Positions 6,592 to 55,898 of a stretch of DNA of 64,000 nt are shown piece by piece (position 1 is the first letter of the stretch; every line of letters begins with the position of its first letter). The translations under genes and the position numbers were made by a program. The notes beneath the pieces are model-generated. The model did no database searches. It was not told the origin of the DNA and saw only the letters and a program-made list of their open reading frames with translations. The stretch is from Corynebacterium yonathiae (GTDB lineage Bacteria; Actinomycetota; Actinomycetes; Mycobacteriales; Mycobacteriaceae), in assembly GCF_022288805.1 (NCBI RefSeq), contig NZ_JAKOPM010000002.1, positions 248,001 to 312,000 of the forward strand, in the 5' to 3' direction.

Positions 6592-7248
6592 CTAGCGCCC
6601 AACACCGGTCGGGCACATATCCCGCAGCACGCATGCTTTACACTCCGGCGTGCGCGCATGGCATATCTGACGCCCATGAGAGATGACGCGGTGCGAGAAC
6701 ATCGTCCACTCTTCTTCTGGCAAAAGCTTGGCGATGTCCCGCTCAATCTTAACCGGCGTCTTCTCCCCCGTTAGCCCGAGCCGCTGCATGAGGCGGCCGA
6801 AGTGCGTATCCACCGTCAGCCCGGGAATCCCGAAGGCGTTTCCGAGCACCACCAGCGCGGTCTTGCGCCCCACGCCGGGCAGGCTAGTGAGCTCTTTGAC
6901 CGTGCGCGGGACCTCGCCTGCAAAATCTGCCACCAACTTCTCCCCGATGCCCAAAAGATGGCCCGCCTTGGCGCGCTGAAATCCCAAGGGGCGCAGGATG
7001 CGTTCCAGATCCGAGCGCTGGGCCGCTGCATAATCCGCCGCCTCTGGGTACCGGGCAAAGAGTTCAGGGGTCACCGAATTCACGCGTTCATCCGTGCATT
7101 GGGCCGACAATACCGTGGCTACCAAGAGCTGCAGTGGGGAGTCATAGTCCAAGGCGCATCGCGCATCCGGATACTCCTGTGCCAAGCGGCTATTTATCTC
7201 TGGTGCCCGTAACTCCGGCGCGCTGGCCGCAGACAGTGCTGAATTCAT
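6592..7248 (-). CDS. nth: Endonuclease III
   Basis: 218 residues. The helix-hairpin-helix LPGVGRKTA carries the catalytic Lys129, and TVDTHFGR carries Asp147. The [4Fe-4S] ligands are Cys196, Cys203, Cys206 and Cys212 with the expected 6-2-5 spacing. The protein is a bifunctional DNA glycosylase/AP lyase for oxidised pyrimidines in base excision repair. It lies 9 bases upstream of the TlpA-like gene in the same orientation. Confidence 0.96.
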   Translation of the reverse strand: MNSALSAASAPELRAPEINSRLAQEYPDARCALDYDSPLQLLVATVLSAQCTDERVNSVTPELFARYPEAADYAAAQRSDLERILRPLGFQRAKAGHLLGIGEKLVADFAGEVPRTVKELTSLPGVGRKTALVVLGNAFGIPGLTVDTHFGRLMQRLGLTGEKTPVKIERDIAKLLPEEEWTMFSHRVISHGRQICHARTPECKACVLRDMCPTGVGR

Positions 7249-7276
7249 GGGATAAAGCTTAGTAGACTAGGAAAAC

Positions 7277-7366
7277 ATGATTTCACTCGTAATTCTGGTA
7301 CCGCTTGCCATCGCCCTTTTTGCCCTTTTGATGGAAAAGCTCGAGGCGGTCGTTTTCGCTGACTAA
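7277..7366 (+). CDS. 29-residue single-helix membrane microprotein upstream of glxR
   Basis: ATG 7277 to TAA 7364-7366. The peptide starts MISLVILVPLAIALFALLME and ends KLEAVVFAD: one hydrophobic helix of about 17 residues followed by a short charged amphipathic end. It sits where mycobacteria carry a small membrane protein (Rv3675) between nth and crp, which supports it being a real gene. A short purine-rich stretch (GGAAAAC) lies just upstream. Function unknown. Confidence 0.55.
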   Translation: MISLVILVPLAIALFALLMEKLEAVVFAD

Positions 7367-7387
7367 GCAGCAAACCTGCTGGCCGGA

Positions 7388-8273: not shown

Positions 8274-8291
8274 CCTCAGGCCAGCTCATCA

Positions 8292-9242: not shown

Positions 9243-9701
9243 TCAAGCAGCGATTTCTACGATTAGTTCGATCTCTACCGGCGCGTTCTTAGGCAACGCA
9301 GCCACACCCACGGCGGAGCGAGCATGCGTGCCGGCGTCCCCAAAGACGTCACCGATGAAATCGGAGGCACCGTTGATCACAACCGGCTGATCTTCAAAGT
9401 CCGGGTCAGAGGCCACGAACCCCACGATTTTTACCACGCGGGAAATATTATCCAGGCCCACCTCGGCATCGATGGCTGCGAGCGCATTCAGCGCCGCGAT
9501 GCGAGCCTGTTCCTGGGCCTGCTCCGTGGTGAGATCGGCACCGACCTTACCGGTCAACGGCAAGGCACCTTCCACCAAGGGGAGCTGGCCCGAGGTCCAG
9601 ACCTGATTACCCACGCGCACGGCCGGCACATAGGAGGCTAGCGGCTTGGCGACGCCCGGTAGCTCGTACCCCAGCTCCCGCAAGCGAGCATGAAAGCCCA
9701 T
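9243..9701 (-). CDS. RidA family protein (YjgF/YER057c/UK114)
   Basis: 152 residues. VWTSGQLPLVEGAL and QARIAALNALAAIDAE are typical of the family. In canonical RidA an Arg in the C-terminal motif helps deiminate enamine/imine intermediates from PLP enzymes. Here the corresponding region is GTHARSAVGVAALPKNAPVE, the longer atypical subgroup also found in mycobacteria. The ATG at 9701 directly abuts the stop of the DUF4177 gene (9702-9704), so the two are probably coupled. Confidence 0.88.
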   Translation of the reverse strand: MGFHARLRELGYELPGVAKPLASYVPAVRVGNQVWTSGQLPLVEGALPLTGKVGADLTTEQAQEQARIAALNALAAIDAEVGLDNISRVVKIVGFVASDPDFEDQPVVINGASDFIGDVFGDAGTHARSAVGVAALPKNAPVEIELIVEIAA

Positions 9702-10373: not shown

Positions 10374-12878
10374 GTGACTGTCTTCAAATCTTTGGCCAAG
10401 ATAGCCCTGTCCACGGTCTTGGTAGGTGCGCTTATCGCCCTGGCTCTTGCCCCCTTTGCGGGCATTTCCGGGGTGGCGATTGCCCGCACTAACGAAACCA
10501 TGCAATCTGACCTGCAAGATCTGACCGCCGGCAATATCCCTGGCGTAACCACGATCAAGGACGCCAAGGGCAAAAACATGGCCTATGTCTTCAGCCAGCG
10601 CCGTCACCCGGTGGAGAGCAAGAAGATTTCCTCAGCCATGAAAGACGCCATCGTCTCCATTGAGGACGAACGTTTTTATGAACATGAAGGCGTGGACTTC
10701 CAGGGCAATTTTCGCGCCCTGTGGACCAACCTGACCTCAGGCGGCGTCTCCCAGGGCGCTTCCACCATCGATCAGCAGTACGTAAAAAACTACTTATTGC
10801 TGGTCTCTGCCACCACTGATGAAGAACGCGCCGCAGCCACCGAGCAATCCATAGCCCGCAAGCTGCGCGAGATGCGCATGGCCACCAAGATGGATGAAGA
10901 GCTAGATAAGGATGAAATCCTCACCAACTATCTCAACTTGGTGTCCTTTGGTAACCATGCGTATGGCGTCGAAGCAGCGGCCCGCACCTACTTTGGCACG
11001 CATGCTTCCGAGCTGACGGTACCGCAAGCAGCGATGCTGGCCGGCATGGTCCAATCCTCTGAACGCCTCAACCCCTATACCAATGCCGAGGAAGTAACCC
11101 AGCGACGCAATCTGGTCCTGCAATCCATGGCGGAGAACGGCCATATCGAGCAGCAGGAAGCGGATAAGTATAAGGAGGAGAAGCTGGGCGTCGGCAAGAA
11201 GCCCAAGACGCTTGCCAATGGCTGTATCGGCGCAGGCGACCGCGGTTTCTTTTGCGATTATGTACTAAAGTACCTGAATAAGAAAGGTATTAGCGAGGAG
11301 CAACTGGCACGCGGCGGCTACACCATCAAGACCACACTGGACCCAACGGTGCAAGATAAGGCGCTTCAGTCCGTGCAAAGCCACACCAGCCCAGACGCGC
11401 AAGGCGTGGCCGAGGTCATGAACGTCATCAAGCCCAGCAAATCGGACCGCAAGGTGCTGGCCATGGTCTCCTCCCGTGACTATGGCCTAGACCTAGATAA
11501 AAATGAGACCATCTTGCCGCAGCCCTATTCCCTGGTGGGCAATGGCGCAGGTTCGGTTTTTAAAGTCTTTACCGCCGCGGCCGCACTCGAGGCAGGCTAC
11601 GGCATCAAAAATACCGTGGACGTACCCACCCGCTATGAGGCAGAAGGCCTGGGCCATGGCGGCGCTGAAGGATGCCCGGCCAACCGCTACTGCGTGGAAA
11701 ACGCCGGCTCCTACAAGGCCACGATGACGCTGCAAGAAGCGCTGGCACACTCACCCAATACGCCGTTTATCAAGCTCACGGAGCAGGTAGGCGTGGCTCC
11801 CATCGTTGATATGGCCGTGCGCTTAGGTCTGCGCTCCTATGATGATAAGGGCAGCTTTGATAAGGACACCTCGATTGCCCAGCACACTAAGGAAGCCAAT
11901 TCGGGTTCCTTTACCCTAGGCCCGGACCAGGTCAACCCGCTGGAGCTATCCAATGTAGGCGCCACGCTGGCTGCGGATGGTAAATGGTGCGAGCCCAACC
12001 CTATCTCCCAGGTCACGGATAAGGAAGGCAATGAGGTCTACCTGAAGGAAACCCCGTGCGAGCAAGCAGTAGATAAGGGCGTCGCCCGCGCCATGAGCAA
12101 TGCCCTATCCGAAGACGCCAAGCAGGGCACGGCCAAGGATGCAGCCCAGGCAGCCGGCTATTCCAGCCCAATCGCGGCCAAGACCGGTACCACCGAGTCC
12201 AACCAATCCTCTGCTTTCCTGGGATTCAACGAGGGCATTTCCGCAGCGCCTTATATCTATAACGACGGCACTTCCACCGTCCCACTGTGTACCGGACCAG
12301 TACGCCAGTGCGCGGGTTGGGGCAACCTCTATGGTGGTTTGGAGCCGGCGCAGACCTTCTTCAGCATGGCCTCGCAGTTGCCCATAGCAACCAAGGCCGG
12401 ACTGCCTAATTACGACAAGAAATACGACAACGGCACCACGGCCGATAAGACCTTGGATAGCCTGCGGGGCAAATCCGAGGCCGAGGCGCGCCAAGCCTTG
12501 GAGTCAAAGGGCTACGTGGTGAAAACCTCCCGCGTGATAGGCGGCGATGTGCCTTATGGCCGCGTGGTGCGCGCCATTACCGGCAAGGACGGAAAGAAGA
12601 AGGGCGCGGAGATTACGCTGCAGCTTTCCGACGGCGCCGGGGCCTCCCAATCCCCCTCCTCCGGCGTGGCCGACGCTAACTCCACCGGCGCACAAAATAG
12701 CACCGGCGGCGGTGCTGCCGACGGCGCTACTAACCCGGGCCGCTCAACTGGCGGTACAGGCGGTGGAAATGGCAACGGCGGTGGCGGTCGCGGTGGGTTC
12801 TCGCCAGAGGACTTTGGCATCCGCCAAGAGGATATCGATAATTTTGCCAACGATATCCGCAGCCTACTTGGCCGCTAG
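10374..12878 (+). CDS. Class A penicillin-binding protein with PASTA domain (PonA2/Pbp1a type)
   Basis: 834 residues from GTG 10374; a TTG two codons earlier at 10368 is possible, and no clear ribosome site marks either. In order: membrane anchor (about 8-32), glycosyltransferase domain with EDERFYEHEGVDFQG, transpeptidase domain with SVFK, HSPN and AKTGTT motifs, then one PASTA domain (about 690-760, GKSEAEARQALESKGYVV). A Gly/Ser/Asn-rich tail follows. It polymerises and cross-links peptidoglycan outside the membrane. The gene is divergent from whcA, as in related genera. Confidence 0.93.
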   Translation: MTVFKSLAKIALSTVLVGALIALALAPFAGISGVAIARTNETMQSDLQDLTAGNIPGVTTIKDAKGKNMAYVFSQRRHPVESKKISSAMKDAIVSIEDERFYEHEGVDFQGNFRALWTNLTSGGVSQGASTIDQQYVKNYLLLVSATTDEERAAATEQSIARKLREMRMATKMDEELDKDEILTNYLNLVSFGNHAYGVEAAARTYFGTHASELTVPQAAMLAGMVQSSERLNPYTNAEEVTQRRNLVLQSMAENGHIEQQEADKYKEEKLGVGKKPKTLANGCIGAGDRGFFCDYVLKYLNKKGISEEQLARGGYTIKTTLDPTVQDKALQSVQSHTSPDAQGVAEVMNVIKPSKSDRKVLAMVSSRDYGLDLDKNETILPQPYSLVGNGAGSVFKVFTAAAALEAGYGIKNTVDVPTRYEAEGLGHGGAEGCPANRYCVENAGSYKATMTLQEALAHSPNTPFIKLTEQVGVAPIVDMAVRLGLRSYDDKGSFDKDTSIAQHTKEANSGSFTLGPDQVNPLELSNVGATLAADGKWCEPNPISQVTDKEGNEVYLKETPCEQAVDKGVARAMSNALSEDAKQGTAKDAAQAAGYSSPIAAKTGTTESNQSSAFLGFNEGISAAPYIYNDGTSTVPLCTGPVRQCAGWGNLYGGLEPAQTFFSMASQLPIATKAGLPNYDKKYDNGTTADKTLDSLRGKSEAEARQALESKGYVVKTSRVIGGDVPYGRVVRAITGKDGKKKGAEITLQLSDGAGASQSPSSGVADANSTGAQNSTGGGAADGATNPGRSTGGTGGGNGNGGGGRGGFSPEDFGIRQEDIDNFANDIRSLLGR

Positions 12879-12905: not shown

Positions 12906-13370
12906 TTAGCTCAGCTGGGCCTTGACCTCCGCGGATAGGCGCTTGCCGTCCGCCTGGCCGGCAGCCTTAGCATTGGCCACCTTCATTACTGCACCCATCT
13001 GCTTCATGGTGGGTGCTTCGCCGTTTTCGGCCTCAACCTCTGCAATGGATTCCTTTACCAAGGCCTGCAGCTCGGAGTCGTCTAGCTGGCGGGGCTGGTA
13101 GGCCTCGAAGAAGGGGACGTCGGCAAGCTCGGCTTCAGCCAACTCTGGACGCCCATTTTCCGCATAGACCTCGGCGGACTCGCGGCGCTTTTTAATTTCG
13201 CGCGCAATGACCTTAAGGATGTCGGCGTCCTCCAGCTCGTGCCGGGAGCCATTGGTTTCCTCGGCCTGGATGGCAGCCAACAAGGCACGGATGGCGCTGG
13301 TGCGCTGCTTCTCCTTCGCCTTCATTGCGGTTTTCAGATCTGCACGGATGGTTTGTTTTAGCTCGCTCAT
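12906..13370 (-). CDS. GatB/YqeY domain-containing protein
   Basis: 154 residues from ATG 13370 (MSELKQTIRADLKTAMKAKE). The YqeY helical bundle is recognisable in IRALLAAIQAEE, VIAREIKKRRES and the tail MKQMGAVMKVANAKAAGQAD, which matches the GatB tail domain. YqeY proteins are thought to contact tRNA, but no firm role is known. It is convergent with the PBP gene (27-base gap) and divergent from the phosphoesterase. Confidence 0.88.
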   Translation of the reverse strand: MSELKQTIRADLKTAMKAKEKQRTSAIRALLAAIQAEETNGSRHELEDADILKVIAREIKKRRESAEVYAENGRPELAEAELADVPFFEAYQPRQLDDSELQALVKESIAEVEAENGEAPTMKQMGAVMKVANAKAAGQADGKRLSAEVKAQLS

Positions 13371-16308: not shown

Positions 16309-17753
16309 TTAAACGAATTTTTAGTTTTTGCTGTGGACAAGGCCCACCATTTTGCACTTAACCCAATGAGAGTGACGGCGAGCAAAACCGCAATCCCGGT
16401 CCACAGGACGGCCTGTTCGCCTTCGTTTCCCGCCGCCGTTACTGCCGCGGTAGTCCAATTCAAGGGCAAAAGATTAGAAATAACCTGCCAGACCTTAGAA
16501 ACGCCGGCAATCGCCGCGGATTTCCATAGCCATCCCACCAGCGCAGTCTGACCGATACCAAAGAGTGCCGCAAGAATGCTGCCGGCAGTAATCCCGCACA
16601 GGCCTAGCAGGCCACGCGTGATGGCCGCCATAGACAGCGCACCCAGAAGCAATGCCGCCCCAGCCCACGCTGCCGCCACGGGAGTAAACCCGGTGGCAAA
16701 CACAAAGAGGAGGATTTCCCCGATAGCTACAGCGGCCAGCGTACCGCCCACAACCGTCAGCCAAGGGCGGAATCCCACCTGCCAGGCCACGCCCGCCACG
16801 GCACCTGCGAGCAGCACCAAGGCGGAGACCAACATCGCCACGATGGGGCTCAGCAGATGTGCCGAGCCGTTGGAAGCGGTATGCGCCGGCGGCAGGGCAC
16901 GCTGAATATCGCCCACGTTGGTCTGATTTTGAGCTGCCATGGAGGAGAGCCTGCCAGCGCCGTCGTCAAGCTTGTCTACGCCTTCTTGCGCCTCCCCAAC
17001 GCGCTTATTGAGCTCCGCAATGCCCTCATTGAGCTCTTGTGCACCAGACACTGCCTGATTCACACCATCGTGATAGGCATAGCCGCTAACCGCCAGCTGA
17101 TTGGACAGATCGCGCGAGCCATCCTTGAGCTTTTTGAGCTGGTCAGTTACCGAATTATCCAGGCGGAAATTATTTACCTGCGCACGAAGATCACCTAGCT
17201 GCGCGCGAATGTCCTTGGCTTCTTTGGACTTATTGCCTTCCAGATCGTGCATCGTGCCATCGATGGCCTGCAAAATCTGCCCCTGAACAGCACCGAGGCC
17301 GACCACCTGGTCCACGGCGCCGCCTACGCCATTGGCCAGCTCCGTTGCTCCGCCACCGAGCGTATTGGTTCCAGACTGCAGCTGATTGAGGCCGGCTAAC
17401 AGTTCTTGAGAGCCCGTCGCCAGCTTGTCGACGCCCCCTCCCAACTCATCGGCTCCTTTGTTTAGCTCCCCCGTGCCGTCGTCAAGCTGCTTGGCGCCCG
17501 ATTTAAGCATGCTTGCCTGTGCCTGGGCGCGGCTGGCTGCCTCGGCGGCTTCCTTTACCTCTGGAGTGGCAGAGTTTTCTCGCGGCGCGCCAAACGGCTG
17601 CGCGGCGTTAGACCAGGCATGGGCGGGTTCCCACTGCGCAAGGCCCGCCACCGCAGCGCCGATAATCAACGGCAGGGCAAGCAACAAGATTAAGAGGACG
17701 CTGCGCCACCTAGAGGGAGACGTAGCGTTCGGGGAAGCAAGGCGTGAGGTCAT
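16305..17753 (-). CDS. YhgE/Pip-like multi-pass membrane protein
   Basis: 482 residues from ATG 17753; the longer frame adds only an unlikely N-terminus. One N-terminal helix (about 17-38) precedes a long extracytoplasmic region of about 270 residues. That region has 11-residue repeats of the form LxxGxxELxxG (LDDGTGELNKGADELGGGV). Five or six further helices fill the C-terminal 190 residues. The arrangement matches YhgE/Pip and ABC-2-like proteins, a family linked to phage receptors in lactococci and type VII secretion (EsaA). No ESX genes are in the window. Confidence 0.75.
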   Translation of the reverse strand: MTSRLASPNATSPSRWRSVLLILLLALPLIIGAAVAGLAQWEPAHAWSNAAQPFGAPRENSATPEVKEAAEAASRAQAQASMLKSGAKQLDDGTGELNKGADELGGGVDKLATGSQELLAGLNQLQSGTNTLGGGATELANGVGGAVDQVVGLGAVQGQILQAIDGTMHDLEGNKSKEAKDIRAQLGDLRAQVNNFRLDNSVTDQLKKLKDGSRDLSNQLAVSGYAYHDGVNQAVSGAQELNEGIAELNKRVGEAQEGVDKLDDGAGRLSSMAAQNQTNVGDIQRALPPAHTASNGSAHLLSPIVAMLVSALVLLAGAVAGVAWQVGFRPWLTVVGGTLAAVAIGEILLFVFATGFTPVAAAWAGAALLLGALSMAAITRGLLGLCGITAGSILAALFGIGQTALVGWLWKSAAIAGVSKVWQVISNLLPLNWTTAAVTAAGNEGEQAVLWTGIAVLLAVTLIGLSAKWWALSTAKTKNSFN

Positions 17754-22514: not shown

Positions 22515-23579
<1,065 letters not shown>

Positions 23580-42175: not shown

Positions 42176-42268
42176 GGGGACCCCGCGCACCCGCCAGAGC
42201 CTCCTGACCCTTGCTGCATTCCTGCCCTGGGGGAGTTCAGAGGATGGACGCCACGCGGAATCCTCCCC
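42176..42268 (-). ncRNA. ffs: Small (4.5S-type) SRP RNA
   Basis: About 93 bases on the minus strand. The 5' and 3' ends pair (GGGGA with TCCCC), and the apical part has CAGGGCAGGAATGCAGCAAG, the conserved Ffh-binding internal loop with its GGAA-type cap. TTTTTG follows as a terminator. This RNA with Ffh targets membrane proteins. Confidence 0.93.
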
Positions 42269-42639: not shown

Positions 42640-42975
42640 CTAATCGATGACCGGCGGTTCGTAGCCATCCGCCTTAAGCCAAGCAACGTGCGGCGGCGTA
42701 TTCATCCCCCACTCGGTACGCGCCCAAAGGAAGGCCTGGGAAACCTCGGCCTCAGAATAGCCCCCATCGCGCAGGTATTGCCGGAAACCATTGGGGCCAG
42801 GGTCTTTGATCCAGAGCCAGACGTAGTCGTCGAGGGAGTCGTCGGCAAGCAAGCCCTCCATCCCTTCTGGAACGTATTCACGCTCGGCGCGCACGCGGTC
42901 CACTAGGTCTTGGTCGAGGAAATCATAGAGATAATCCAGCGCATCCTCGAGCTGGGCATAATCGAAGGCGTCCAT
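42640..42975 (-). CDS. Small acidic conserved hypothetical protein
   Basis: 111 residues from ATG 42975, preceded by AGGCGGC. It begins MDAFDYAQLEDALDYLYDFL and is rich in Asp, Glu and aromatic residues (DDYVWLWIKDPGPNGFRQYL). No signal peptide, no membrane segment. The ATG lies 11 bases after the antiporter stop (TAG 42988-42986), so the two are likely co-transcribed. Family not recognised. Confidence 0.7.
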   Translation of the reverse strand: MDAFDYAQLEDALDYLYDFLDQDLVDRVRAEREYVPEGMEGLLADDSLDDYVWLWIKDPGPNGFRQYLRDGGYSEAEVSQAFLWARTEWGMNTPPHVAWLKADGYEPPVID

Positions 42976-44577: not shown

Positions 44578-45471
44578 TTACCCCCGCCAGGTATAGGGCT
44601 TTGGGCTTAAGCGGTCGGGCTCGAATTGCGCTAGCAGCTCTGCGGCACTGACGGCTTCGTATCCCAGCGAGACTGCCAATTGCTTTACGACGTCCCCCAC
44701 CTCCCCCATCTCCCGCATGGTCACCGCCCCATCGCGCTTGGCCAGACGCTCGCCGGATTCATTGAGCACGAGCGGGACGTGGATATACTCCGGCGCTTCG
44801 ATGCCGAGCAATGAGGCGAGGTAGGCCTGGCGCGGCGCGGAGGAGAGCAAGTCATCGCCGCGGACCACCTGGTCAATGCCCTGGAAGGCATCGTCGACGA
44901 CGACGGCCAAGTTATACGCCCAACCGGTGTCCTGGCCGCCGCGGCGCAGGATGAAGTCATCGACGTCGCCGGTATAGGTGCCGTGGAGGGCGTCGTGGAT
45001 GGTGAAAGTGGGGACGTCGGCAAGCAGGCGCAGGGCGGGCTGGCGATTCTGGGCAGCAAGCTCGGCACGCTTGACCGCCCGCTGGTCCTCGGTGAGGTTG
45101 CGGCAGGTGCCCGGGTACTGGCCAGGGATGGCGTGTGGGGCGCGGGAGGCCTCGCGGATGTCCTTACGCGAGCAGTAGCACTCGTAGGTGGGCAGCTGGG
45201 CCAAGGCCTGCTCATAAGCGGCGTCACGATCCTGCTGGTAGATGACTTCGCCGTCCCAATCCAGCCCGAGCGCGCGCAGGTCCGCGAGCTGGCGCTCGGC
45301 CGCCTCCGGGGAAGAGCGCTGCTTATCGATGTCCTCCACGCGCACCACAAAGCGCCGACCCGTCGACCGAGCGAAAAGCCACGCTAGAAGCGCCGTGCGG
45401 AGGTTGCCAAAGTGCAGATCGCCCGAGGGACTCGGCGCGTAGCGGCCGGCGCCGGTAGTCGCAGAATTCAT
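44578..45471 (-). CDS. gluQRS: Glutamyl-Q tRNA(Asp) synthetase
   Basis: 297 residues from ATG 45471. A glutamyl-tRNA synthetase catalytic core without anticodon-binding domain: [20 protein letters not shown] is the HIGH-like region and RLAKRDGA the KMSKS-like loop. The zinc ligands are Cys98, Cys100, Tyr119 and Cys123, all present. It attaches glutamate to the cyclopentene-diol of queuosine at position 34 of tRNA-Asp, not to a tRNA end. Transporter and tgt genes next door fit a queuosine role. Confidence 0.93.
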
Positions 45472-45495
45472 GCCCACAGTCTACGGGCTGGCACA

Positions 45496-46179
45496 ATGGC
45501 GGGCATGGAAAAACCAACCAGCGCTGAGGTGCGCTTCATTCCCGTCCGCTCCACCCTCTACCCCTGGCTGGTCACCGTGTTTGTGGTGACCTTCCTGATT
45601 TCCAATATCAATGCCACCAAGGGTGTACAGCTCGGCCCGCTGGTAACCGACGGCGCCTTCTTCCTGTTCCCGCTGGCCTATATCGTCGGCGACGTGCTCT
45701 CCGAGTGCTATGGCTTTAAATCCACCCGGCGCGCGGTCTATATCGGCTTCGCGATGGCCATCTTGGCGGCCGTGTGCTTCTATATCGCCATCTGGCTGCC
45801 GGCGGCCGATTTCTACGAGGGCCAAGAAGCATTCGCAGCCACGCTCGGCCTGATGCCGCAGATTCTGGCCGCCTCGCTAGCCGGCTATCTCGTGGGCCAG
45901 CTGCTCAACGCTTGGACGCTGACCGCAATGAAGAAGCGCTCGGGCGAAAAGGGCCTCTTTTCGCGCCTTATCGCTTCTACCGTGGTGGGCGAATTTGGCG
46001 ATACATTGCTGTTTTGCGCCATCGCCGCGCCGGTAATCGGCGTGGATACCGTGGGTGGTTTCATCAACTACGTCATCGTGGGATTCGTCTGGAAGACCCT
46101 GATGGAGGCCGTCATGCTGCCGGTGACGGCCGCGGTCATCAAGTGGGTGAAGAAGCGCGAGGATTACTTGCCGGCGTAG
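45496..46179 (+). CDS. Queuosine precursor transporter (YhhQ/QPTR)
   Basis: 227 residues from ATG 45496; ATG 45505 (MEKPTSAEV) is also possible. About six transmembrane helices. Family hallmarks are LISNINATKGVQLG, FPLAYIVGDVLSECYGFKST and STVVGEFGDTLLF. The family imports preQ0/preQ1 or queuine. It is divergent from gluQRS and overlaps the convergent tgt by 16 bases, so the three queuosine genes are clustered. Confidence 0.9.
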   Translation: MAGMEKPTSAEVRFIPVRSTLYPWLVTVFVVTFLISNINATKGVQLGPLVTDGAFFLFPLAYIVGDVLSECYGFKSTRRAVYIGFAMAILAAVCFYIAIWLPAADFYEGQEAFAATLGLMPQILAASLAGYLVGQLLNAWTLTAMKKRSGEKGLFSRLIASTVVGEFGDTLLFCAIAAPVIGVDTVGGFINYVIVGFVWKTLMEAVMLPVTAAVIKWVKKREDYLPA

Positions 46180-47408
46180 TAGCGGCCGAGGAATTCATCG
46201 CGGTAGGCCTCGTAGTAGCCACCGTCGATCGCGGCGCGGATATTGTCCACTAGCCGAATCATGAATTCCACGTTGTGGATGGTGCACAGCGTGCCCGCGA
46301 GGAATTCCTTCGCCTTGAGCAGGTGGTGCAGGTAGGCGCGGGAGTAATTCTCAGATACGTAGCCGCCGAATTCCTCGTCGACGCCAGCGAAATCGCGCTT
46401 AAAGCGCGCATTGGTGAGGTTCATGCGGCCGTCGAGGGTGTAGACGCCGCCGCGGCGCGCTAGGCGGGTCGGCGCCACGCAGTCGAAGGTATCGGCGCCG
46501 GCCTCGACGGCAGTGAAGATATCGTCCGGCTCGGAGATGCCGAGCAGGTGGCGCGGCTTGTCCTCGGGTAGCTCATCGCAGACCCAGCCGACAATGGTGC
46601 CCAGGTTTTCCTTCTCCAGCGCGCCGCCGATGCCAAAACCGCCAAAGCCGCGCTTGCCTTCCTCCCGGGCGGCGCGGTCGAGGTCGAGCAGGCCACGGGT
46701 GGCCTGGCGGCGCAGATCCTCATATTGCGCGCCCTGAACGACGCCCCACAAGGACTGCTTCGGGCGATGGGCACGCTCCCGGGTGAGGCGGTCGTGCTCG
46801 TCTAGGCAGCGCTTCGCCCAGCGGTGCGTGCGGGCGACGGATTCTTCTTGGTAGGTGCGCGTATCAACGAGCGTGGTCAGCTCATCGAAGGCGAACATAA
46901 TATCCGCGCCCAGCCCGTGCTGAATCTGCATGGACTTCTCAGGCGTGAAGCGGTGCTTGGAGCCGTCGATAACGGATTTGAAATCCACGCCGTCCTCGTC
47001 CACCTGCGCCATACGTTCTTTCTTGGCGGCGCGGATGTCCTTATCGCTAAGTTCCGCGATATCCATCGCAAGGACCTTCTTGAAACCTACGCCCAGCGAC
47101 ATCACCTGAAATCCGCCGGAGTCGGTGTAGGTCGGTCCGTGCCAGTTTTCGAACTCCGCCACGCCGCCGGCCTCGTCCACGATGTCGTGGCCTGGCTGCA
47201 GATAAAGGTGGTACGCATTCGACAGGATGGCTTGCGCGCCGGTGGAGCGAATCTGCTCCGGAGTCAGGGTCTTTACCGTGGCTTTAGTGGCCACCGGGAT
47301 GAAGGCTGGGGTCTGAATATCGCCGTGTGGGGTGTGGATGACACCGCTGCGGCCGTGCTTGCCGGGACCTTCGGGCAGGCGCTTGCCGACGTCGAAGCTC
47401 AAGTCCAT
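46164..47408 (-). CDS. tgt: Queuine tRNA-ribosyltransferase (Tgt), divergent form
   Basis: 414 residues. The catalytic acids are kept: Asp96 in TDSGGFQVMSLG and Asp309 in FDCVAPTRLARRG. The zinc motif is not: where E. coli Tgt has C-x-C-x2-C ahead of RNYSRAYLHH, this protein reads EEFGGYVSENYSRAYLHH with no Cys. The substrate-pocket loop GGLAVGE is replaced by IGGALEKENLG. It should exchange guanine 34 of GUN-anticodon tRNAs for a queuosine precursor. The deviations suggest a specific subfamily, possibly using queuine. See findings. Confidence 0.88.
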   Translation of the reverse strand: MDLSFDVGKRLPEGPGKHGRSGVIHTPHGDIQTPAFIPVATKATVKTLTPEQIRSTGAQAILSNAYHLYLQPGHDIVDEAGGVAEFENWHGPTYTDSGGFQVMSLGVGFKKVLAMDIAELSDKDIRAAKKERMAQVDEDGVDFKSVIDGSKHRFTPEKSMQIQHGLGADIMFAFDELTTLVDTRTYQEESVARTHRWAKRCLDEHDRLTRERAHRPKQSLWGVVQGAQYEDLRRQATRGLLDLDRAAREEGKRGFGGFGIGGALEKENLGTIVGWVCDELPEDKPRHLLGISEPDDIFTAVEAGADTFDCVAPTRLARRGGVYTLDGRMNLTNARFKRDFAGVDEEFGGYVSENYSRAYLHHLLKAKEFLAGTLCTIHNVEFMIRLVDNIRAAIDGGYYEAYRDEFLGRYYAGK

Positions 47409-47410
47409 AT

Positions 47411-49990
47411 CTATTCTTCTTCCTTGTGTGCAGGGCTAGGGGTTGGGGTGGCGTGTTTAGCTTCCCATTCTTCTTCCAGGGCGGTGCCTTCGATGTCCAG
47501 GGTGGGCAGAATCTTGGCCAGCCACTTCGGCATCCACCACGTCGCGCGGCCCATAAGGAACATGGTGGCGGGGACGAGGGTCATGCGGATAAAGAAGGCG
47601 TCGAAAAGCACGCCAGCGGCCAAGGCAAAGCCGAAAATCTGAATGAAAGGCAGCGGCTGGTTAATAAACGCCACGAAGACCGAAATCATAATGATGGCTG
47701 CGGCCGTTACCACGCGGGCGCCTTGGGTAAAGCCGGTGATGGTGGCCTCATCGACGGCGCTATACCGCCCGCCGGTGCCCTCCGGGTGGCGAGAGATGTG
47801 CTCTCGCATGCGAGTGACTAGGAAGACCTGGTAGTCCATCGCGAGGCCAAAGGTCACGCCGATGAGGAAGATCGGCATGAAGGAAATCAGCGGGCCCGGC
47901 GCGGGAACCAGGTTCCACAGGCCTTCCTGCCAGACCAGAACGGTCAGACCGAAGGCGGCGCCAACGGACAGCAAGAAACCCAGGCCCGCAACCAAAGGCA
48001 CGAGGATGGAGCGGAAGACCAAGAGCAGCAGCACGATGGCCAGACCCACGACGATGGCCAGGTACGGTGCCATAGCTTCCTCGAGGCGCTCGGTGATATC
48101 GAGCTGCACAGCGGTCAGGCCGGTCAGGCCGATGTCGGTACCGGTAGCGTCCTCGATCTCGCCGGTGGCCGAGCGCAGTGCGTGCGCTACGTTGACCGTC
48201 GCGGTATCCGTAGGCGCGGTTTCCGGGGTGACCATGATCTGTGCGGCGCGCTGATCCTCGCTCAGTCCGACGATCTGCGCGTGCTTCACCCCGCCCAAGC
48301 CCTTGAGTTGGTCCGCGGCATAGAGGAAGGACGCGAGCGCGGCCTTATCCTCCGGAGAGGCATCGTCTGCAGCGTCTGCAGAGGTATCTACCACCTCAGC
48401 AGCCGGGGCAATCTCCGGCTCTGCCGCGGGTTGGTCCTGCTGCGGCTGCTCAGGCATCTCTTCTTCGGGGGCAGCATTCTCGGCCGCGTCCTGCTCCGGC
48501 GCGGGAGCAGGTGCGGGAGCGGGGGCTGGTTCGGGTTGAGACTGGGCGTCGACAAGCGGGGCCAAGGCGCCGGACTCCGCGTTGACCGTGTGGGCATCGA
48601 CCACGGCGAGGAAAGGATCGTTGACGCCGGGGCCAAAGCCCTCGGACATGAGGTCAGCGGCCTTGCGCTGGGTGGTATCGGGATTCGACGTAGTATCGGC
48701 CGGAAGGGCAAGCTCCATCTGGAGTACCGGCGCGGTCATTGCACCTAAGGAGAGCACGACCAGCGCCATAGCCAAGCCGGGGACCTTTTGGACTAGGCGC
48801 ACCCAGCGGTTGCCCATAGTGGGCCCGCGGCGGCGCTTTCCCTTGCGGGTCGGGTTGCCGGCCACGCCGGGGATTCGGCCATTGAAGGCCTTATCGCCCA
48901 GCACACCCAGCATCGCGGGGATGAGCGTAAGCGACACCAATACGGCGATGGCGACGGTGCCGGCGGCGGCCAAGCCCATGGCCGTCAAGAAGCCGATGCG
49001 TGCAATGAGAAGCGCAAAAAGCGCAGTAAAGACGGTCGCGCCGGCAAAGACCACGGAGGAGCCGGCGGTTCCCACCGCCATGCCTGCGGCATCGGGCCCG
49101 TCCATGCGGCGGCGCTCGGCGCGGTAGCGCGAAAGGATAAACAGCGCATAGTCAATGCCCACGGCTAAGCCAATCATGATGGCCAGGACCGGGGTCATAT
49201 TATTGAGCTCAATCCAGTGGGTGGCAATGAACATGCCCAGCGCGCCTAGTCCCACGCCGATGACGGCGGACACCAAAGGCATACCCGAGGCCACCAGGGA
49301 GCCGAAGGTAAAGATGAGCACGATAAAGGCAACGCCGAGGCCGATGATCTCAGAGGTGGAATTGACCGCGATTTCATCGCCGAAGCCGGCACCATTGCCT
49401 TCTACCGTGAGGCCGCGGTCGCGGGCAATATTCATTGCCTCGGTAACGGTGTCTTTATCGGCCTGCTCCACGCTATAGGGCGACTCGGCGTCGAAATTAA
49501 AGGTGGTATAGGCAATGGTCTCGTCATCATTGACCATGGCGAGGTTGTCCGCGTCCGCGCGGGCGGATGCTTCCGGCAATCCCATGTCCGTGAACTGGTG
49601 GATCACCTGGTCCTGCAATCGAGGCGAGACCTCAAGCGGGTTGCCAAAGCGCGTGGTATCGCCCATCTCTAGGTTGTCCTCGAGGTAGGAGATGGTGGCG
49701 TCGATGGCCTCGCGGTTTGCGGGATCAGAAAGCTTCTGGCCGTCTGGGGCCTTGAAGACCACGTTGACCGAGGGCGAGTTGGCAGGATTGCCGCCCTCTG
49801 GGAAGAGGTCCATGGTCTTGTAGGTGGCGTCGATGGACGGGGTTCCCTTGATGGAGAACTCACTCGTCATCGGTTTCATCAGCAAGGCGGCGGCACCGCC
49901 GACGGCGGCGAGCAGCAGTAGCCATGCCACGATGACCTTCCATTTATGGAGGAAAGACCAACGCCCAAGACGATAAAGCAGTTTAGCCAC
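47411..49990 (-). CDS. MMPL-family RND transporter
   Basis: 859 residues with two halves, each with one helix, a large external loop and five clustered helices. ALLMKPMTSEFSIKGTPSID opens the first loop, and IMIGLAVGIDYALFILSRYR is the MMPL-specific TM4-5 motif with the proton-relay Asp-Tyr, repeated in IGVTFGLAMDYQVFLVTRMR. A Pro/Ala/Glu-rich insert (about 490-545) sits in the second loop. In corynebacteria MMPL proteins export trehalose mycolates or other lipids; which one this is cannot be told. It lies 2 bases upstream of tgt. Confidence 0.88.
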   Translation of the reverse strand: MAKLLYRLGRWSFLHKWKVIVAWLLLLAAVGGAAALLMKPMTSEFSIKGTPSIDATYKTMDLFPEGGNPANSPSVNVVFKAPDGQKLSDPANREAIDATISYLEDNLEMGDTTRFGNPLEVSPRLQDQVIHQFTDMGLPEASARADADNLAMVNDDETIAYTTFNFDAESPYSVEQADKDTVTEAMNIARDRGLTVEGNGAGFGDEIAVNSTSEIIGLGVAFIVLIFTFGSLVASGMPLVSAVIGVGLGALGMFIATHWIELNNMTPVLAIMIGLAVGIDYALFILSRYRAERRRMDGPDAAGMAVGTAGSSVVFAGATVFTALFALLIARIGFLTAMGLAAAGTVAIAVLVSLTLIPAMLGVLGDKAFNGRIPGVAGNPTRKGKRRRGPTMGNRWVRLVQKVPGLAMALVVLSLGAMTAPVLQMELALPADTTSNPDTTQRKAADLMSEGFGPGVNDPFLAVVDAHTVNAESGALAPLVDAQSQPEPAPAPAPAPAPEQDAAENAAPEEEMPEQPQQDQPAAEPEIAPAAEVVDTSADAADDASPEDKAALASFLYAADQLKGLGGVKHAQIVGLSEDQRAAQIMVTPETAPTDTATVNVAHALRSATGEIEDATGTDIGLTGLTAVQLDITERLEEAMAPYLAIVVGLAIVLLLLVFRSILVPLVAGLGFLLSVGAAFGLTVLVWQEGLWNLVPAPGPLISFMPIFLIGVTFGLAMDYQVFLVTRMREHISRHPEGTGGRYSAVDEATITGFTQGARVVTAAAIIMISVFVAFINQPLPFIQIFGFALAAGVLFDAFFIRMTLVPATMFLMGRATWWMPKWLAKILPTLDIEGTALEEEWEAKHATPTPSPAHKEEE

Positions 49991-50219: not shown

Positions 50220-51080
50220 TTAAACGTACTTCGACAAACTCAGGCCGGGAAGAACGAGGTCAGAGAAGAAGGCGCTAATTTTCTTTACCCGCTCGACAAC
50301 AGCAGCGATGGTCTCGCCTAGTTTGCCGAACGAAGAACCGTGGAAAGAAGAGCCATCGGCTGCAGCGTTGTCGCCCGAAGGCTTCTTTTCTGGGGCCCCA
50401 TGGTCAGATGGTTCAGCGTTTTCGGAGGCACCGTCGAATGCCACGGTGAGATCAGAGTTGGCATCGTCAAGCGGCTGCCCCACCGGGTACTTGCCCAAGA
50501 AAATGTCGGAGCCCGTCTGGGTCAGCGAGGTGGGGGCATCAGTTGTGGCGTAGGACTTGCCGGTTTCCGGCACCAAGGGCTCAGTAAGCGTGAAGGTAGA
50601 GATTGCGGCGTCATCGCCAGACAATTCAACCGGCTTGTTCTTAAGCGGGCCCGAGGCGCCCGTAAGTTTATAATCCGCGGTGATGGTGGCGTTTTGGCCT
50701 GCTACTTCTACCTTGATATCCGAGAATGTGAGATCGACGCCGTAGGAACCATTAGGGCCGAAGCCTGGATAGCCTTGAATCTGCACGGATCCCTGAGTGC
50801 CAATAGTGCCGTTTCCCTCAGCATCCAGCGTGGTGTAGGCCGCATCGACTGGGAAGGTGAAGTCCTTTCCTACCTTCTCCGCGCCGTCGGTGGTATTGAT
50901 TATGCCTTTGGCAAGCGGGTTGGTGTCCACGTGGTGAATGAAGGATTCCTTGATGGGCCAGTTCAATTGGCCGGATTCCACGGCGGGGACATCGGCCGGA
51001 GCCTCATCGGCAGAGGCTACCGGTGCGGTGACGGCGCCGAGTGCAACCGCTCCAACGGCGATGACGGATGTTGTTTTCAT
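50220..51080 (-). CDS. htaC: HtaA-domain protein HtaC-like, heme ligands exchanged
   Basis: 286 residues. Signal peptide with cleavage near ASA-DEA (residue 24). One HtaA (CR) domain, about 35-215, starting LNWPIKESFIHHV. At the sites where HtaA has Tyr and His, this protein has His50 and Tyr104 (VQIQGYPGFG), while the third-site Tyr is kept in IFLGKYPVGQPLDD. A Ser/Pro linker and hydrophobic C-terminus (ISAFFSDLVLPGLSLSKYV) would tether it to the membrane. In C. glutamicum htaC closes the heme locus. A DtxR box lies 45 bases upstream. Confidence 0.82.
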   Translation of the reverse strand: MKTTSVIAVGAVALGAVTAPVASADEAPADVPAVESGQLNWPIKESFIHHVDTNPLAKGIINTTDGAEKVGKDFTFPVDAAYTTLDAEGNGTIGTQGSVQIQGYPGFGPNGSYGVDLTFSDIKVEVAGQNATITADYKLTGASGPLKNKPVELSGDDAAISTFTLTEPLVPETGKSYATTDAPTSLTQTGSDIFLGKYPVGQPLDDANSDLTVAFDGASENAEPSDHGAPEKKPSGDNAAADGSSFHGSSFGKLGETIAAVVERVKKISAFFSDLVLPGLSLSKYV

Positions 51081-53035: not shown

Positions 53036-53045
53036 GGAAATCCTC

Positions 53046-53822
53046 CTATTTGTGTGAGAAGAGTGGGTTGATGGTGGGCGTTGCACGCTGCGGGTGTACC
53101 CGCAGCCCCTCGACGGATATCGGCCAGCCATACACTTGAGACAAGGTAGGACTGGTAAAGACCTCATCTACGCGCCCTTGGGCTGCTAATCCCCCGCACG
53201 CCAGGCATACGAGATGATCACAATATGCTGCTGCCGCATTGAGGTCATGCAGCACCACGAGGACGGCGACGCCTGCCTCACGGGCAAGGGCTTTTACTGA
53301 GCCCAACAGTTGTTCTTGGTGCCGGATATCCAGCGCGGCCGTTGGCTCATCGAGCAAGATAACCGGGGTATTTTGGGCAAGCACACGTGCGAAGGCCGCG
53401 CGGGCGCGCTCACCGCCAGACAGCGTGCTGATGTCTCGGCCTGCTAAGTGCGCGACGCCGGCGGTATCGAGGGCGGCGTCAATAAAGTCATCGTCAAGGT
53501 CTGCGTAGTCAGTTCCTTCCCACGGGCGGCGCCCCATCGCAACGACATCGCGGACGAGGAATTCGAAGGACACCGAGACGTCCTGGAGCATCACCGCACG
53601 CGTGCGCGCGAGCTCTCGCGCTGGCGCCTTGGGCGATAGCCCACCCACGGTGATCTCGCCGGAATAGTCGAAGTCTCCGGCGACGGCGGCAAGTACGGTG
53701 GATTTACCGGCGCCGTTCGGGCCGATAAGCCCGGTAACTTCGCCCGCTTGGGCGGTAAAGGACACTTGGTCCACCAGGGTGTGCTCCCCCACGCGAACAG
53801 TTAAGTCTTTGACGTTTATCAT
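53046..53822 (-). CDS. hmuV: Heme ABC transporter ATPase HmuV
   Basis: 258 residues. Walker A GPNGAGKSTVL, Q-loop near MLQDVSVSFEF, signature LSGGERARAA, Walker B VILLDEPTAALD and H-loop LVVLHDL are all present. It energises heme import through HmuU. ATG 53822 shares one base with the hmuU stop (TGATG), so the two are translationally coupled. Confidence 0.95.
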   Translation of the reverse strand: MINVKDLTVRVGEHTLVDQVSFTAQAGEVTGLIGPNGAGKSTVLAAVAGDFDYSGEITVGGLSPKAPARELARTRAVMLQDVSVSFEFLVRDVVAMGRRPWEGTDYADLDDDFIDAALDTAGVAHLAGRDISTLSGGERARAAFARVLAQNTPVILLDEPTAALDIRHQEQLLGSVKALAREAGVAVLVVLHDLNAAAAYCDHLVCLACGGLAAQGRVDEVFTSPTLSQVYGWPISVEGLRVHPQRATPTINPLFSHK

Positions 53823-54871
53823 CAGTGCACTCCTTTGCGCATCATGCGCCGTAGCAGGATGAAGAACGTGGGACCGCCCACCAGCGCGGTGAAAATGCCG
53901 ATGGGAAGATCCGCAAAAGGAATCATCGTGCGCGCTGCCACGTCAGCGAAACCAATGAGCACAGCACCGCCAAGGGCGGAAGCCGGCAGCAGGATGCGGT
54001 TTTCTGGTCCGACGATGCTGCGCAGCAGGTGGGGAACGATAAGTCCCACAAAGCCAATGAGGCCGGCGAAGGAAACGGCCGCTGCAGTCAACACTGCCGA
54101 TGCCACGATCGCCACGATGCGCAGCCGCGGCACGTTCACACCGGTATGCGCGGCGGCGCGCTCGCCGAGCGCGAGGACGTCTAACTGCTTACCCAGGCGC
54201 AAGGCCACTGCGAGACCAACCATCACGATGGGCAGTACCGCCCACAGGTGTTTCCACTGTGAGCCGTTGAGGGAGCCCATCTGCCAGAAGATGATCGCTT
54301 CACGGTTGGCGGTCGGCGCTAGGTACACCATGAAAGAGATAATGGCGTTGCATACCGCATTGATGGCGACGCCGGTGAGAATCAGGTGCACCACGGCCAC
54401 CCGTCCGTTGTGGCGCGCAAGCTGATAGATAATGAAGGTAACCAGCAGCGCGGTCAGGAAGGCCGCAGCGGGAACGGTAAAGGTACCGAAGAACTCGATA
54501 TTAAAGACGATGATCACGGCCGAACCAACGCCCGCACCGGAGGTAACGCCAATAATGGAGGGTTCTGCCAAGGGGTTGGCAAATACCGCCTGCATCAGCG
54601 TGCCGGCAACGCCCAAGGCCGCTCCCACCACGAGCCCCAAGACCAAACGCGGTAGGCGGATGTCCCACACCACGCTTGCGGTCAAGGAATCCTCCCCGTG
54701 GCCAGCTGCCAAAATGGGAAAGAGATCAGACAGCGGTACATAGTATTGCCCCAGCACGACGGAGATGATCGCCGCGACAACGATGAGGATCCCCAGCAGT
54801 ACGAATACCCAAGTGCGCTGCGTGCGTCGGCGCGCGAAGGTGTCCGGGTCCTTACTCATTGTCCGGGTCAT
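53822..54871 (-). CDS. hmuU: Heme ABC transporter permease HmuU
   Basis: 349 residues, FecCD/BtuC type with about ten helices. Typical stretches are RLPRLVLGLVVGAALGVAGT and SFAGLIGFVGLIVPHLLRSI. AAAGGC at 6 bases supports ATG 54871; ATG 54859 (ATGAGTAA overlap with hmuT) is the alternative. It forms the membrane channel for heme with HmuV. Confidence 0.94.
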   Translation of the reverse strand: MTRTMSKDPDTFARRRTQRTWVFVLLGILIVVAAIISVVLGQYYVPLSDLFPILAAGHGEDSLTASVVWDIRLPRLVLGLVVGAALGVAGTLMQAVFANPLAEPSIIGVTSGAGVGSAVIIVFNIEFFGTFTVPAAAFLTALLVTFIIYQLARHNGRVAVVHLILTGVAINAVCNAIISFMVYLAPTANREAIIFWQMGSLNGSQWKHLWAVLPIVMVGLAVALRLGKQLDVLALGERAAAHTGVNVPRLRIVAIVASAVLTAAAVSFAGLIGFVGLIVPHLLRSIVGPENRILLPASALGGAVLIGFADVAARTMIPFADLPIGIFTALVGGPTFFILLRRMMRKGVH

Positions 54872-55898
54872 ACACAGCCTTTGCTAGCTTCACCAGCGTT
54901 TGCCCAGTCATGGGACCAAATGCCAACGACTGGCCGTCCGGAATGGTCACGATGCGCTTCTTTTGGCCGGCGGTGGTTTGAGCAACGCCGGGCCGCTCCA
55001 GCAAGCCGTCAATTCCGCCGGTGGATTCCAGGCCATTGGTCATCATGATGATCACCTCTGGATTGATGCGCGCCAGCGCCTCAGCATTAGCGGGTTCCGC
55101 ATAGGAAAGGTTGTTTTCTGCAGCCAGATCCACACCGCCAATGCCTTCAATCAGATCTTGCGCACCGGTACCATCACCCATGATGAAGAAGACGCCACCG
55201 TTTCCGCGTGCGTAAAGGAACGCCATGCGCATTGGATCATCGGGAACCAACTTCTTGATGGCTTCCTTTGCCTCGTCGATTTCCTTGGTGGAACGATCCG
55301 CCAGCTCGCGTGCTTCATCGGGCAGGCCGAGGGCATCGCCAAGCGTGGTGATGTCCTCACCCACCGAATCGATCGTGCGCTCAGGTTCCATCACCACGGT
55401 GGTGACACCCGCCGCGCGGATTTGATCGATGGCATCGCGCGGGCCAATGGAATGGTCTGCAATGACGAGCGTCGGCTGCAGCTCCAGCACCGCCTCCACG
55501 TTGATGTTGTGGCCACCTTCGGTCACCACCGGGAGATCCGCCAGGTTGGGCTCGGTAGAAGAAACTGTGCGACCGACGATATTATCCGCAAGCCCCAAGC
55601 CGCTAAGGGTATTGGTGTAGGTGCCATAGATATCCAAAGCCAGGATGCGGGAGGCATCGGTGACGGTAACGTCGTTACCATCGGCATCGGTAAGCTCCAC
55701 CGGAAGCGCCGGCTCTGCCTTATCAGTAACCGGTTCGATTTCGTCAAAACCTTTGACGTCACTGACACCTTCAAAAGACCTGGGATCCGAGAGATCAGCG
55801 GGATCCGGTAGCTGATCGGTATAGCTTCCCTGCACACCGCACGCGGTAAGACTGAAGATGCACAGGAATGGTACGAGGAAACGAAGAACGAGTTTCAC
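54852..55898 (-). CDS. hmuT: Heme-binding lipoprotein HmuT
   Basis: 348 residues. The lipobox LTAC at residue 20 anchors it to the outer face of the membrane. It is a cluster-A-II substrate-binding protein with a long helix linking two lobes (GVTTVVMEPERTIDSVGEDI and beyond). His in VVTEGGHNINVEAV is a likely heme ligand, as for the His/Tyr pair of C. diphtheriae HmuT. It delivers heme to HmuUV and begins 11 bases after htaA. Confidence 0.93.
   Translation of the reverse strand: MKLVLRFLVPFLCIFSLTACGVQGSYTDQLPDPADLSDPRSFEGVSDVKGFDEIEPVTDKAEPALPVELTDADGNDVTVTDASRILALDIYGTYTNTLSGLGLADNIVGRTVSSTEPNLADLPVVTEGGHNINVEAVLELQPTLVIADHSIGPRDAIDQIRAAGVTTVVMEPERTIDSVGEDITTLGDALGLPDEARELADRSTKEIDEAKEAIKKLVPDDPMRMAFLYARGNGGVFFIMGDGTGAQDLIEGIGGVDLAAENNLSYAEPANAEALARINPEVIIMMTNGLESTGGIDGLLERPGVAQTTAGQKKRIVTIPDGQSLAFGPMTGQTLVKLAKAVYDPDNE

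Follow-up and report, generated by a model that had tools for sequence, protein, structure and literature searches.

What maintains a short word of DNA at many times its chance frequency, on both strands and mostly inside genes? The question is raised by a 64,000-nucleotide stretch of the Corynebacterium yonathiae genome (assembly GCF_022288805.1, contig NZ_JAKOPM010000002.1, positions 248,001 to 312,000; referred to here as the window), in which the word CRTCGNCAAGC is present in 24 copies, 14 on the plus and 10 on the minus strand, spanning positions 6726 to 55344. These comprise 19 copies of CGTCGNCAAGC (11 plus, 8 minus) and five of CATCGNCAAGC (3 plus, 2 minus); the forms beginning CTTCGN and CCTCGN have no copy in the window. 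Expected for both words together are 0.5–1.2 copies under Markov models of orders 1–5 and 2.7 under order 6. An earlier reading made from the letters of the window (the sequence-only reading) had counted 18 and 5 copies, 14 plus and 9 minus, against 0.1–0.2 by chance; the excess is real and both orientations occur, with one minus copy missed and an expectation slightly higher than supposed. The whole-genome count that it had called for gives 523 copies (259 forward, 264 reverse) in this genome (G000; 2.48 Mb, 71 contigs), compared with 6 (1 and 5) for the same word reversed, which is used here as the control. The word is under selection as DNA, and it is probably a DNA uptake signal, serving transformation through a Tad pilus, ComEA and ComEC.

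A bipartite word under selection on DNA

The seventh base of the word, given earlier as a fixed C, is merely favoured as C, and when CRTCG and AAGC are set at different distances, 52 copies per 100 kb of G000 are found with a spacer of 2 nt, compared with 2.3–6.9 with 0, 1 or 3–6 nt; the core is therefore CRTCG-NN-AAGC, of which the window holds 42 copies (6726–63516) and the genome 933, versus 70 of the control. The same 2-nt peak is present in G031, G006, G133 and G118, and the word-less genomes G014, G030 and G176 give ~4 per 100 kb. Base 2 distinguishes two forms, CGTCGNNAAGC and CATCGNNAAGC, referred to here as the G-dialect and the A-dialect. The two free bases vary by lineage, often being A then T or C in pooled loci of named G-dialect genomes, and G then C in G000 and G031.

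Upstream of the core, on the strand of the word, is a G-rich tract of ~40 nt, along which GC skew rises in 10-nt steps toward the word (0.19, 0.34, 0.50 and 0.52 in 416 kb of G000), with little skew farther out or downstream. Position −2 is G in 94–95% of G000 copies (95% in the 416 kb); the sequence-only reading had described flanking bases that lean to GNC, and the G-rich flank is in fact this one-sided tract. The tract is present in five of six samples, namely G000, G133, the A-dialect G006, and pools of 15 G-dialect and 12 A-dialect loci, where it is seen per pool rather than per species; the G031 sample is without it.

Genes called by a simple codon-scored open reading frame finder, rather than annotation, contain 105 of the 122 copies in a sample of G000. 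Shuffling of synonymous codons within genes, with next-base context or with conditioning on the previous codon yields means of 9.0, 8.9 and 10.5 copies, respectively (60 shuffles of each kind, maximum 19), and in G031 104 genic copies are seen where shuffles give 5.2–8.1. Because shuffles give 9–11 copies where 105 are seen, selection acts on DNA and not on protein, as the sequence-only reading had proposed. When G000 is aligned with G133, words in the Leu-x-Asp frame show 97–100% conservation at their wobble positions, compared with 42–87% at the same positions in control words with half of the motif. The word or part of it is also the top over-represented word in 100-kb samples of G000 and G031.

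It is very improbable that bias in codon use, peptides or mutation generates the word, through frequent strings such as CTT-GNC-GAC and GTC-GNC-AAG. Such a bias would account for the finding that 98 of the 105 genic copies lie in two frames, antisense Leu-x-Asp and sense Val-x-Lys; presumably the word is least costly in these two, as would be expected of a tag fitted into coding sequence. Against it, codon, context and dicodon shuffles yield a tenth of the count, and the word is carried by 79 different five-residue contexts in G000 and 83 in G031, in keeping with the earlier statement that one protein motif cannot explain it. Copies are found outside genes as well, the spacer is exact, and the word is present or absent between species of one genus. 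The sequence-only reading had named a count at the level of a dicodon-preserving shuffle, or a single peptide frame, as grounds for giving up its claim; neither is found, yet the concentration in two frames is strong. Barring gross errors in the gene calls, the shuffles rule out a peptide or codon explanation.

Two dialects in the genus

The word is widespread in Corynebacterium, as a count in other genomes, also proposed earlier, makes clear. Among 201 genomes drawn from a larger group, two of them of the window's species (G000 and G098), 150, or about three quarters, carry a dialect at 280–1964 copies: 139 the G-dialect (280–1964, median 1094) and 11 the A-dialect (625–1337). Ten are intermediate and 41 have neither; these class limits (200, 500 and 100–200 copies) were chosen after the distribution was known, and A-dialect counts entered the classing of 13 genomes, the other 188 having at most 159 CATCGNNAAGC. 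Counts of CGTCGNNAAGC are bimodal, with 61 genomes at or below 150, none at 150–200 and 140 above 200; 10 of the 11 A-dialect genomes fall among the 61. Dialects track phylogeny, with one main dialect per genome, the exceptions being G032 and G167, which has both (1337 CATCGNNAAGC and 352 CGTCGNNAAGC) and is perhaps in the middle of a switch.

In 26 named genomes, CRTCGNNAAGC was counted against its control (word/control). The largest counts are those of C. amycolatum SK46 (1687/96), C. gottingense (1506/110) and C. lipophiloflavum (1327/102), followed by C. tuberculostearicum SK141 (1039/61), C. kefirresidentii (963/67), C. phoceense (694/82) and C. macginleyi (532/81), with seven other named genomes at 667 to 1189. 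The signal is weaker in C. parakroppenstedtii (320/63), C. mastitidis (242/22) and C. meridianum (157/70), and near control are C. jeikeium (107/119), C. falsenii (60/69), C. glyciniphilum (106/93), C. sp. SN15 (86/73), Gordonia (277/202) and genomes of Rhodococcus, Mycolicibacterium and Williamsia. Nothing comparable to the Corynebacterium counts is present in 295 Actinomycetota genomes outside the genus, where a ratio of ~6 occurs only at tiny counts (G255, 44/7) and of ~5 near 200 copies (G413, 217/42; G327, 183/35), with other modest excesses in G519 (216/48) and G403 (152/36); these five excesses may stem from codon usage or from weak signals particular to those genomes. For the narrower word, the top ratio in 24 genomes of the same order is 135/46.

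Two word-less genomes have enrichments of other kinds. In G176 (C1:200001-300000), GCGTCGAGC occurs 10 times in 100 kb where 0.74 are expected, and 12 times in 119 kb; a third dialect was considered, but no wider consensus is visible by eye at its CGTCGAGC sites. In G014 (C1:200001-300000), CATAAANCAGA, AACACNAGTAA and related words each occur ten times, which may reflect a repeat array or insertion element.

On a tree of two proteins, ComEC and HolA (67 taxa, FastTree, several weak nodes), the words are confined to one clade. Basal to it is a word-less clade of C. jeikeium, C. falsenii, C. glyciniphilum, G003, G010, G028, G030, G171 and G190; word-less or intermediate species inside the word clade (G014, G176, G187 and others) look like losses. 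The A-dialect taxa, which are C. phoceense, G135/G118/G203, G168, and G006 with C. macginleyi, surround the window's own G-dialect group (C. kefirresidentii, C. tuberculostearicum, G133 and G004). This arrangement is most simply read as a change to A followed by a reversal to G in the window's lineage, of which the CATCG copies in the window would be leftovers. This simple account does not explain the placement of G032, a G-dialect genome joined to C. phoceense by long branches.

The two dialects share many of their sites. In 324 kb of G000 (8 kb masked), aligned by best blastn alignments with G133 (same dialect, 90.2% identical) and G006 (A-dialect, 82.4%), there are 135 copies of CGTCGNNAAGC. 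Of the 92 that are fully alignable in G006, 57 are CATCGNNAAGC there, 10 are CGTCGNNAAGC and 25 are neither; the 118 alignable in G133 are CGTCG in 110 cases, CATCG in 4 and neither in 4. Where base 2 is silent (Asp GAC/GAT), CGTCGNCAAGC has A in G006 at 24 of 30 sites and G at 1, compared with 102 A and 145 G at 265 control CGTCG sites without the following NNAAG. Where the change would turn Val into Ile, base 2 is A in 4 of 12 words versus 26 of 306 controls. The 29 leftover CATCG words of G000 behave similarly: in the Ile/Val frame, CATCG is kept at 7 of 8 alignable sites in G133 and at all 6 in G006, and in the silent frame the 12 sites in G133 are CGTCG in 6 cases, CATCG in 3 and neither in 3. 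Because silent-frame words switch and Ile/Val-frame words mostly stay, the sites have been carried over and rewritten where the protein allows.

A candidate uptake signal and its rivals

The words have no strand preference. Plus and minus counts in contig stretches of 320–400 kb are 70/65 in G000, 70/88 in G133, 64/78 in G006 and 87/67 in G031, in which genes lean 1.5–2.5 to 1 on strand, and forward and reverse counts are balanced across the genomes of the genus; a small surplus on one strand is what the antisense preference inside genes would produce. No replication polarity is seen in these skewed stretches of the four genomes, which upholds the earlier remark on strand and argues against polarity of the FtsK type. 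Outside called genes are 10–16% of copies in the same four genomes, compared with 12–25% of sequence that is non-coding, and there is thus no promoter preference.

Foreign DNA was represented by six plasmids, three of them of the window's species group, and one phage. The three C. kefirresidentii/C. tuberculostearicum plasmids (98.5 kb) carry 1 CGTCGNNAAGC, 2 CATCGNNAAGC and 2 control words, where ~31 CGTCGNNAAGC would be expected at the density of G000 (782 in 2.48 Mb); C. aurimucosum pET44827 and C. striatum pCs-Na-1 have no words. In the resistance plasmid pTP10 of C. striatum, seven lie within the first 50 kb, two in tetAB and five at 9.7–13.1 kb, of which three are in mshC and two in hypothetical genes. 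The block around these five (L278:9700-13320) is of chromosomal type, with mshC, undecaprenyl-diphosphatase, dihydroorotate dehydrogenase and hypothetical genes, as if it came from a word-bearing chromosome. Phage CL31 of C. glutamicum (accession from passages of PMC8002715) has 3 CRTCGNNAAGC and 1 control in 45 kb. The phage search matched 1785 records, with a tally of 18 for Corynebacterium; among the 40 listed, all but CL31 are Gordonia phages. Plasmids searched with a stretch of the window as query gave only distant matches.

Genes for a putative uptake route are present throughout the genus. comEC is found in 201 of 201 genomes, and a model of the Tad ATPase (TadA) matches 198, 192 of them above its cut-off; comEA adjoins comEC in all 50 loci inspected, and a Flp-like pilin (DUF4244) and DprA are each present in 40 of 40 genomes. 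In G000, comEA-comEC-holA is on C70 (L103), and a Tad cluster reaches the left end of the window, beside a helicase-like gene (Table 1). In G219 (102 words, an intermediate count), comEC has an in-frame TGA (G219:C1:543012-543797). A longer ComEC was considered as a mark of word-less species and dropped: it is seen in the basal clade, but G123, grouped with the word-rich C. amycolatum, also has one. In six ComEC proteins tested, Pfam finds only the Competence domain, plus a sub-cutoff DUF4131 in one.

If the word is an uptake signal, a cell-surface or cell-wall protein, for which a Tad/Flp minor pilin and ComEA are candidates, would prefer DNA with G-N-CRTCG-NN-AAGC, usually behind the G-rich stretch of ~40 nt. 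Tagged DNA would enter through ComEA/ComEC, pass to DprA and recombine. With tagged fragments taken up more often, tags would spread and persist across the chromosome by molecular drive, settling mostly where no protein change results. A shift in receptor preference at base 2 would be followed by sites throughout the genome, through uptake and recombination, creating dialects. Among the functions that the sequence-only reading had offered, the uptake-type signal fits best and is helped by the dialect switch; the suggested tie to comEC and Tad genes amounts to gene presence.

Several findings weigh against an uptake signal. The com and Tad genes are as common in word-less species, so that they allow the words but do not explain them, and across the 201 genomes the presence of comEC or TadA does not correlate with that of the word. 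No candidate for a word-specific receptor stands out by dialect-linked columns or divergence ranks. ComEA has 15 of 239 columns, and ComEC 41 of 470, at which the window's group is fixed for a residue that A-dialect taxa lack, but the control HolA also has 10 of 325; the two best single columns belong to HolA, and residues tied to dialect are unconvincing beside this control. At the switch, identity is 73.5% for ComEA and for the TadG-like protein, 76% for ComEC, 83% for the TadE-like protein and 90% for the Flp-like pilin; the first three rank among the faster-diverging of 205 orthologues (0.15–0.21) and the last two do not, leaving no outlier among Tad pilins, ComEA and ComEC (ranks 0.15–0.65), and elevated divergence was abandoned as a mark of the receptor. 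Inverted neighbours closer than 60 bp are rare (0–4 per sample of 135–158 words), and spacing is not unusually even (coefficient of variation 0.71–1.34), an idea dropped for that reason. Plasmid depletion fits other functions of the host chromosome as well, and some genera outside Corynebacterium have a modest excess of the word, up to ~5-fold near 200 copies. Natural transformation in Corynebacterium is not reported among the matches listed (titles and beginnings of abstracts).

Binding sites of a chromosome-organising or global regulatory protein (a nucleoid-associated protein, a condensin loader or the like), with specificity changing from G to A and back in some lineages and selection keeping hundreds of sites, are a credible but unlikely alternative. 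An asymmetric bipartite site with a fixed spacer and a one-sided G-rich flank would suit a protein, as would a chromosomal distribution on both strands with near-background counts on plasmids, but promoters are not preferred. The switch in place fits a changed reader combined with gene exchange; weak selection site by site would manage it only slowly, 57 one-letter changes among 92 sites at 82% identity being hard to reach in that way and easier by biased uptake and recombination. A Chi-like recombination hotspot, read by an AdnAB- or AddAB-type helicase–nuclease in double-strand break repair, is improbable. Densities of ~0.3–0.65 per kb and the G-rich context are plausible for it, and Chi words vary between lineages; but the word exceeds known Chi words in length, and its orientation follows neither GC skew nor gene direction in the stretches of four genomes. 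RecC, the Chi-recognising subunit in Escherichia coli, is found in 0 of 40 genomes by a model that matches only E. coli among 14 controls and is blind to AddAB/AdnAB-type readers; RecBCD–Chi itself is ruled out by this. A polar segregation or replication signal, like FtsK-orienting polar sequences (KOPS) or architecture-imparting sequences (AIMS), or a restriction–modification site, is highly improbable. KOPS-like signals are dispersed, over-represented words too, but the strand counts, with no polarity in the contig stretches of 320–400 kb, argue against a polar signal, and restriction sites are usually avoided in genomes rather than multiplied.

To our knowledge, uptake tags for self-DNA are so far known only in two Gram-negative families, the Neisseriaceae and the Pasteurellaceae. 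Returning to the uptake signal, we lean towards the view that most of the genus has a Tad-pilus-based system whose signal is composite and whose dialect has changed genome-wide at least once, with a later reversal in the window's lineage, and that it is the first outside those families. It would be a third, Gram-positive case, implying that tags evolve convergently with a different pilus and that many corynebacteria transform naturally. It would also lead the way to a receptor for DNA in Tad-type competence and, with hundreds of homologous sites to compare, provide a natural experiment in how dialects change; one base would then decide whether corynebacteria of skin and mucosa are sexually connected or isolated from one another. 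Whatever its function, a bipartite word that switches one base throughout the genome needs explaining. No earlier report of the word was found with the spellings tried or in topic searches, among the matches listed, most subscription journals and bioRxiv preprints lying outside the scope of the search; a survey of spaced motifs in genomes including Corynebacterium names, in the available part of its text, CRISPR repeats for the genus (PMC5217627).

Positions of the words are collected in Table 1. Rfam and tRNA scans of the window gave nothing bearing on the word; Rfam places 6C RNA at 504-580 and the bacterial small signal recognition particle RNA at 42169-42267. Genes for GluQRS and Tgt (queuosine-type tRNA modification) are at 44578-47408, adjoined by an MMPL transporter gene (47411-49990).

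Table 1. Copies of the word in the window and the adjoining Tad cluster. Both, found by the narrower-word (CRTCGNCAAGC) and wider-core (CRTCG-NN-AAGC) scans; wider, found by the wider-core scan only.
Feature	Position	Strand	Scan	Remark
Tad/Flp pilus cluster: TadZ-like, TadA, TadB/C-like, Flp-like DUF4244, TadE-like, TadG-like	G000:C22:243836-248354 (L258:5836-10354)			extends into window 1-354
CATCGCCAAGC	6726..6736	-	both	
CGTCGCCAAGC	9644..9654	-	both	
CGTCGGAAAGC	12623..12633	-	wider	
CGTCGGCAAGC	13118..13128	+	both	
CGTCGTCAAGC	16961..16971	+	both	
CGTCGACAAGC	17423..17433	-	both	
CGTCGTCAAGC	17477..17487	+	both	
CATCGTCAAGC	18828..18838	+	both	
CGTCGGCAAGC	22682..22692	+	both	
CGTCGTAAAGC	23822..23832	+	wider	
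CGTCGGCAAGC	26025..26035	-	both	
CGTCGCCAAGC	29662..29672	+	both	
CGTCGGCAAGC	29773..29783	-	both	
CGTCGGCAAGC	31211..31221	-	both	
CGTCGAGAAGC	32570..32580	-	wider	
CGTCGCCAAGC	32813..32823	+	both	
CATCGGCAAGC	34181..34191	-	both	
CGTCGATAAGC	34226..34236	+	wider	
CGTCGGGAAGC	34803..34813	-	wider	
CATCGCTAAGC	35691..35701	+	wider	
CGTCGGCAAGC	36430..36440	-	both	
CGTCGTAAAGC	36984..36994	+	wider	
CGTCGGAAAGC	38519..38529	-	wider	
CGTCGTCAAGC	39521..39531	+	both	
CGTCGGCAAGC	40352..40362	-	both	outside called gene
CGTCGGCAAGC	40730..40740	+	both	outside called gene
CGTCGAAAAGC	41598..41608	-	wider	
CGTCGGCAAGC	42840..42850	+	both	
CGTCGTAAAGC	44682..44692	-	wider	
CGTCGGCAAGC	45015..45025	+	both	
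CATCGATAAGC	45321..45331	-	wider	
CATCGCGAAGC	45746..45756	-	wider	outside called gene
CGTCGGCAAGC	47381..47391	-	both	
CGTCGAAAAGC	47599..47609	+	wider	
CGTCGACAAGC	48547..48557	+	both	
CATCGTCAAGC	50462..50472	+	both	
CATCGCCAAGC	55334..55344	+	both	
CATCGGTAAGC	55685..55695	+	wider	
CGTCGATAAGC	58989..58999	+	wider	outside called gene
CGTCGGTAAGC	60706..60716	-	wider	
CGTCGGAAAGC	61623..61633	+	wider	outside called gene
CGTCGGAAAGC	63506..63516	+	wider	

Comparison with known systems

Chi resembles the Corynebacterium word in being short, over-represented and chromosomal; the word differs in its lack of polarity and of a RecC reader, and in its concerted dialect switch. Closer to it are the DNA uptake sequences (DUS) of Neisseriaceae, read by the minor pilin ComP. 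According to passages of PMC3630211 and PMC12616744, these are words of 10–13 nt, the most abundant repeat of their genome at hundreds to thousands of copies, with dialects of one or a few letters that follow phylogeny and with no presence in the outgroup; densities described in PMC3630211 are similar to those found here. Unlike DUS, the Corynebacterium word has an unrelated sequence, is bipartite with a 2-nt spacer and an upstream G-rich tract, and belongs to Gram-positive hosts with Tad rather than type IV pili, in which uptake and a receptor would be as proposed above. It also forms few inverted pairs, which in genomes with DUS or with the uptake signal sequences (USS) of Pasteurellaceae are frequent and used as terminators, without being required.

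The USS share with the word a composite build, a short core with a longer, one-sided compositional flank, which in USS consists of AT-rich tracts downstream (passages of PMC12616744). Here the flank is G-rich and upstream, and sequence, host phylum and pilus type differ. A precedent for the proposed route is the actinobacterium Micrococcus luteus, in which a Tad cluster, ComEA and ComEC serve transformation (available parts of PMC8467076 and PMC6370729). The Tad ATPase, Flp-like pilin, TadG-like protein, ComEA, ComEC and DprA all have counterparts in Corynebacterium, known here from their genes; unlike the case argued here, the phrase 'uptake sequence' is absent from the available text of PMC8467076.

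With DUS and USS the word shares occurrence both within and between genes, alongside genes for a type IV filament and for ComEA, ComEC and DprA. An effect on uptake and a specific receptor define such signals, and we therefore liken the word to an uptake signal but stop short of classing it as an established DUS or USS. Because it is the top over-represented word, lies on both strands, has dialects by clade, is absent from outgroups and is nearly absent from plasmids, its pattern matches DUS and USS in kind.

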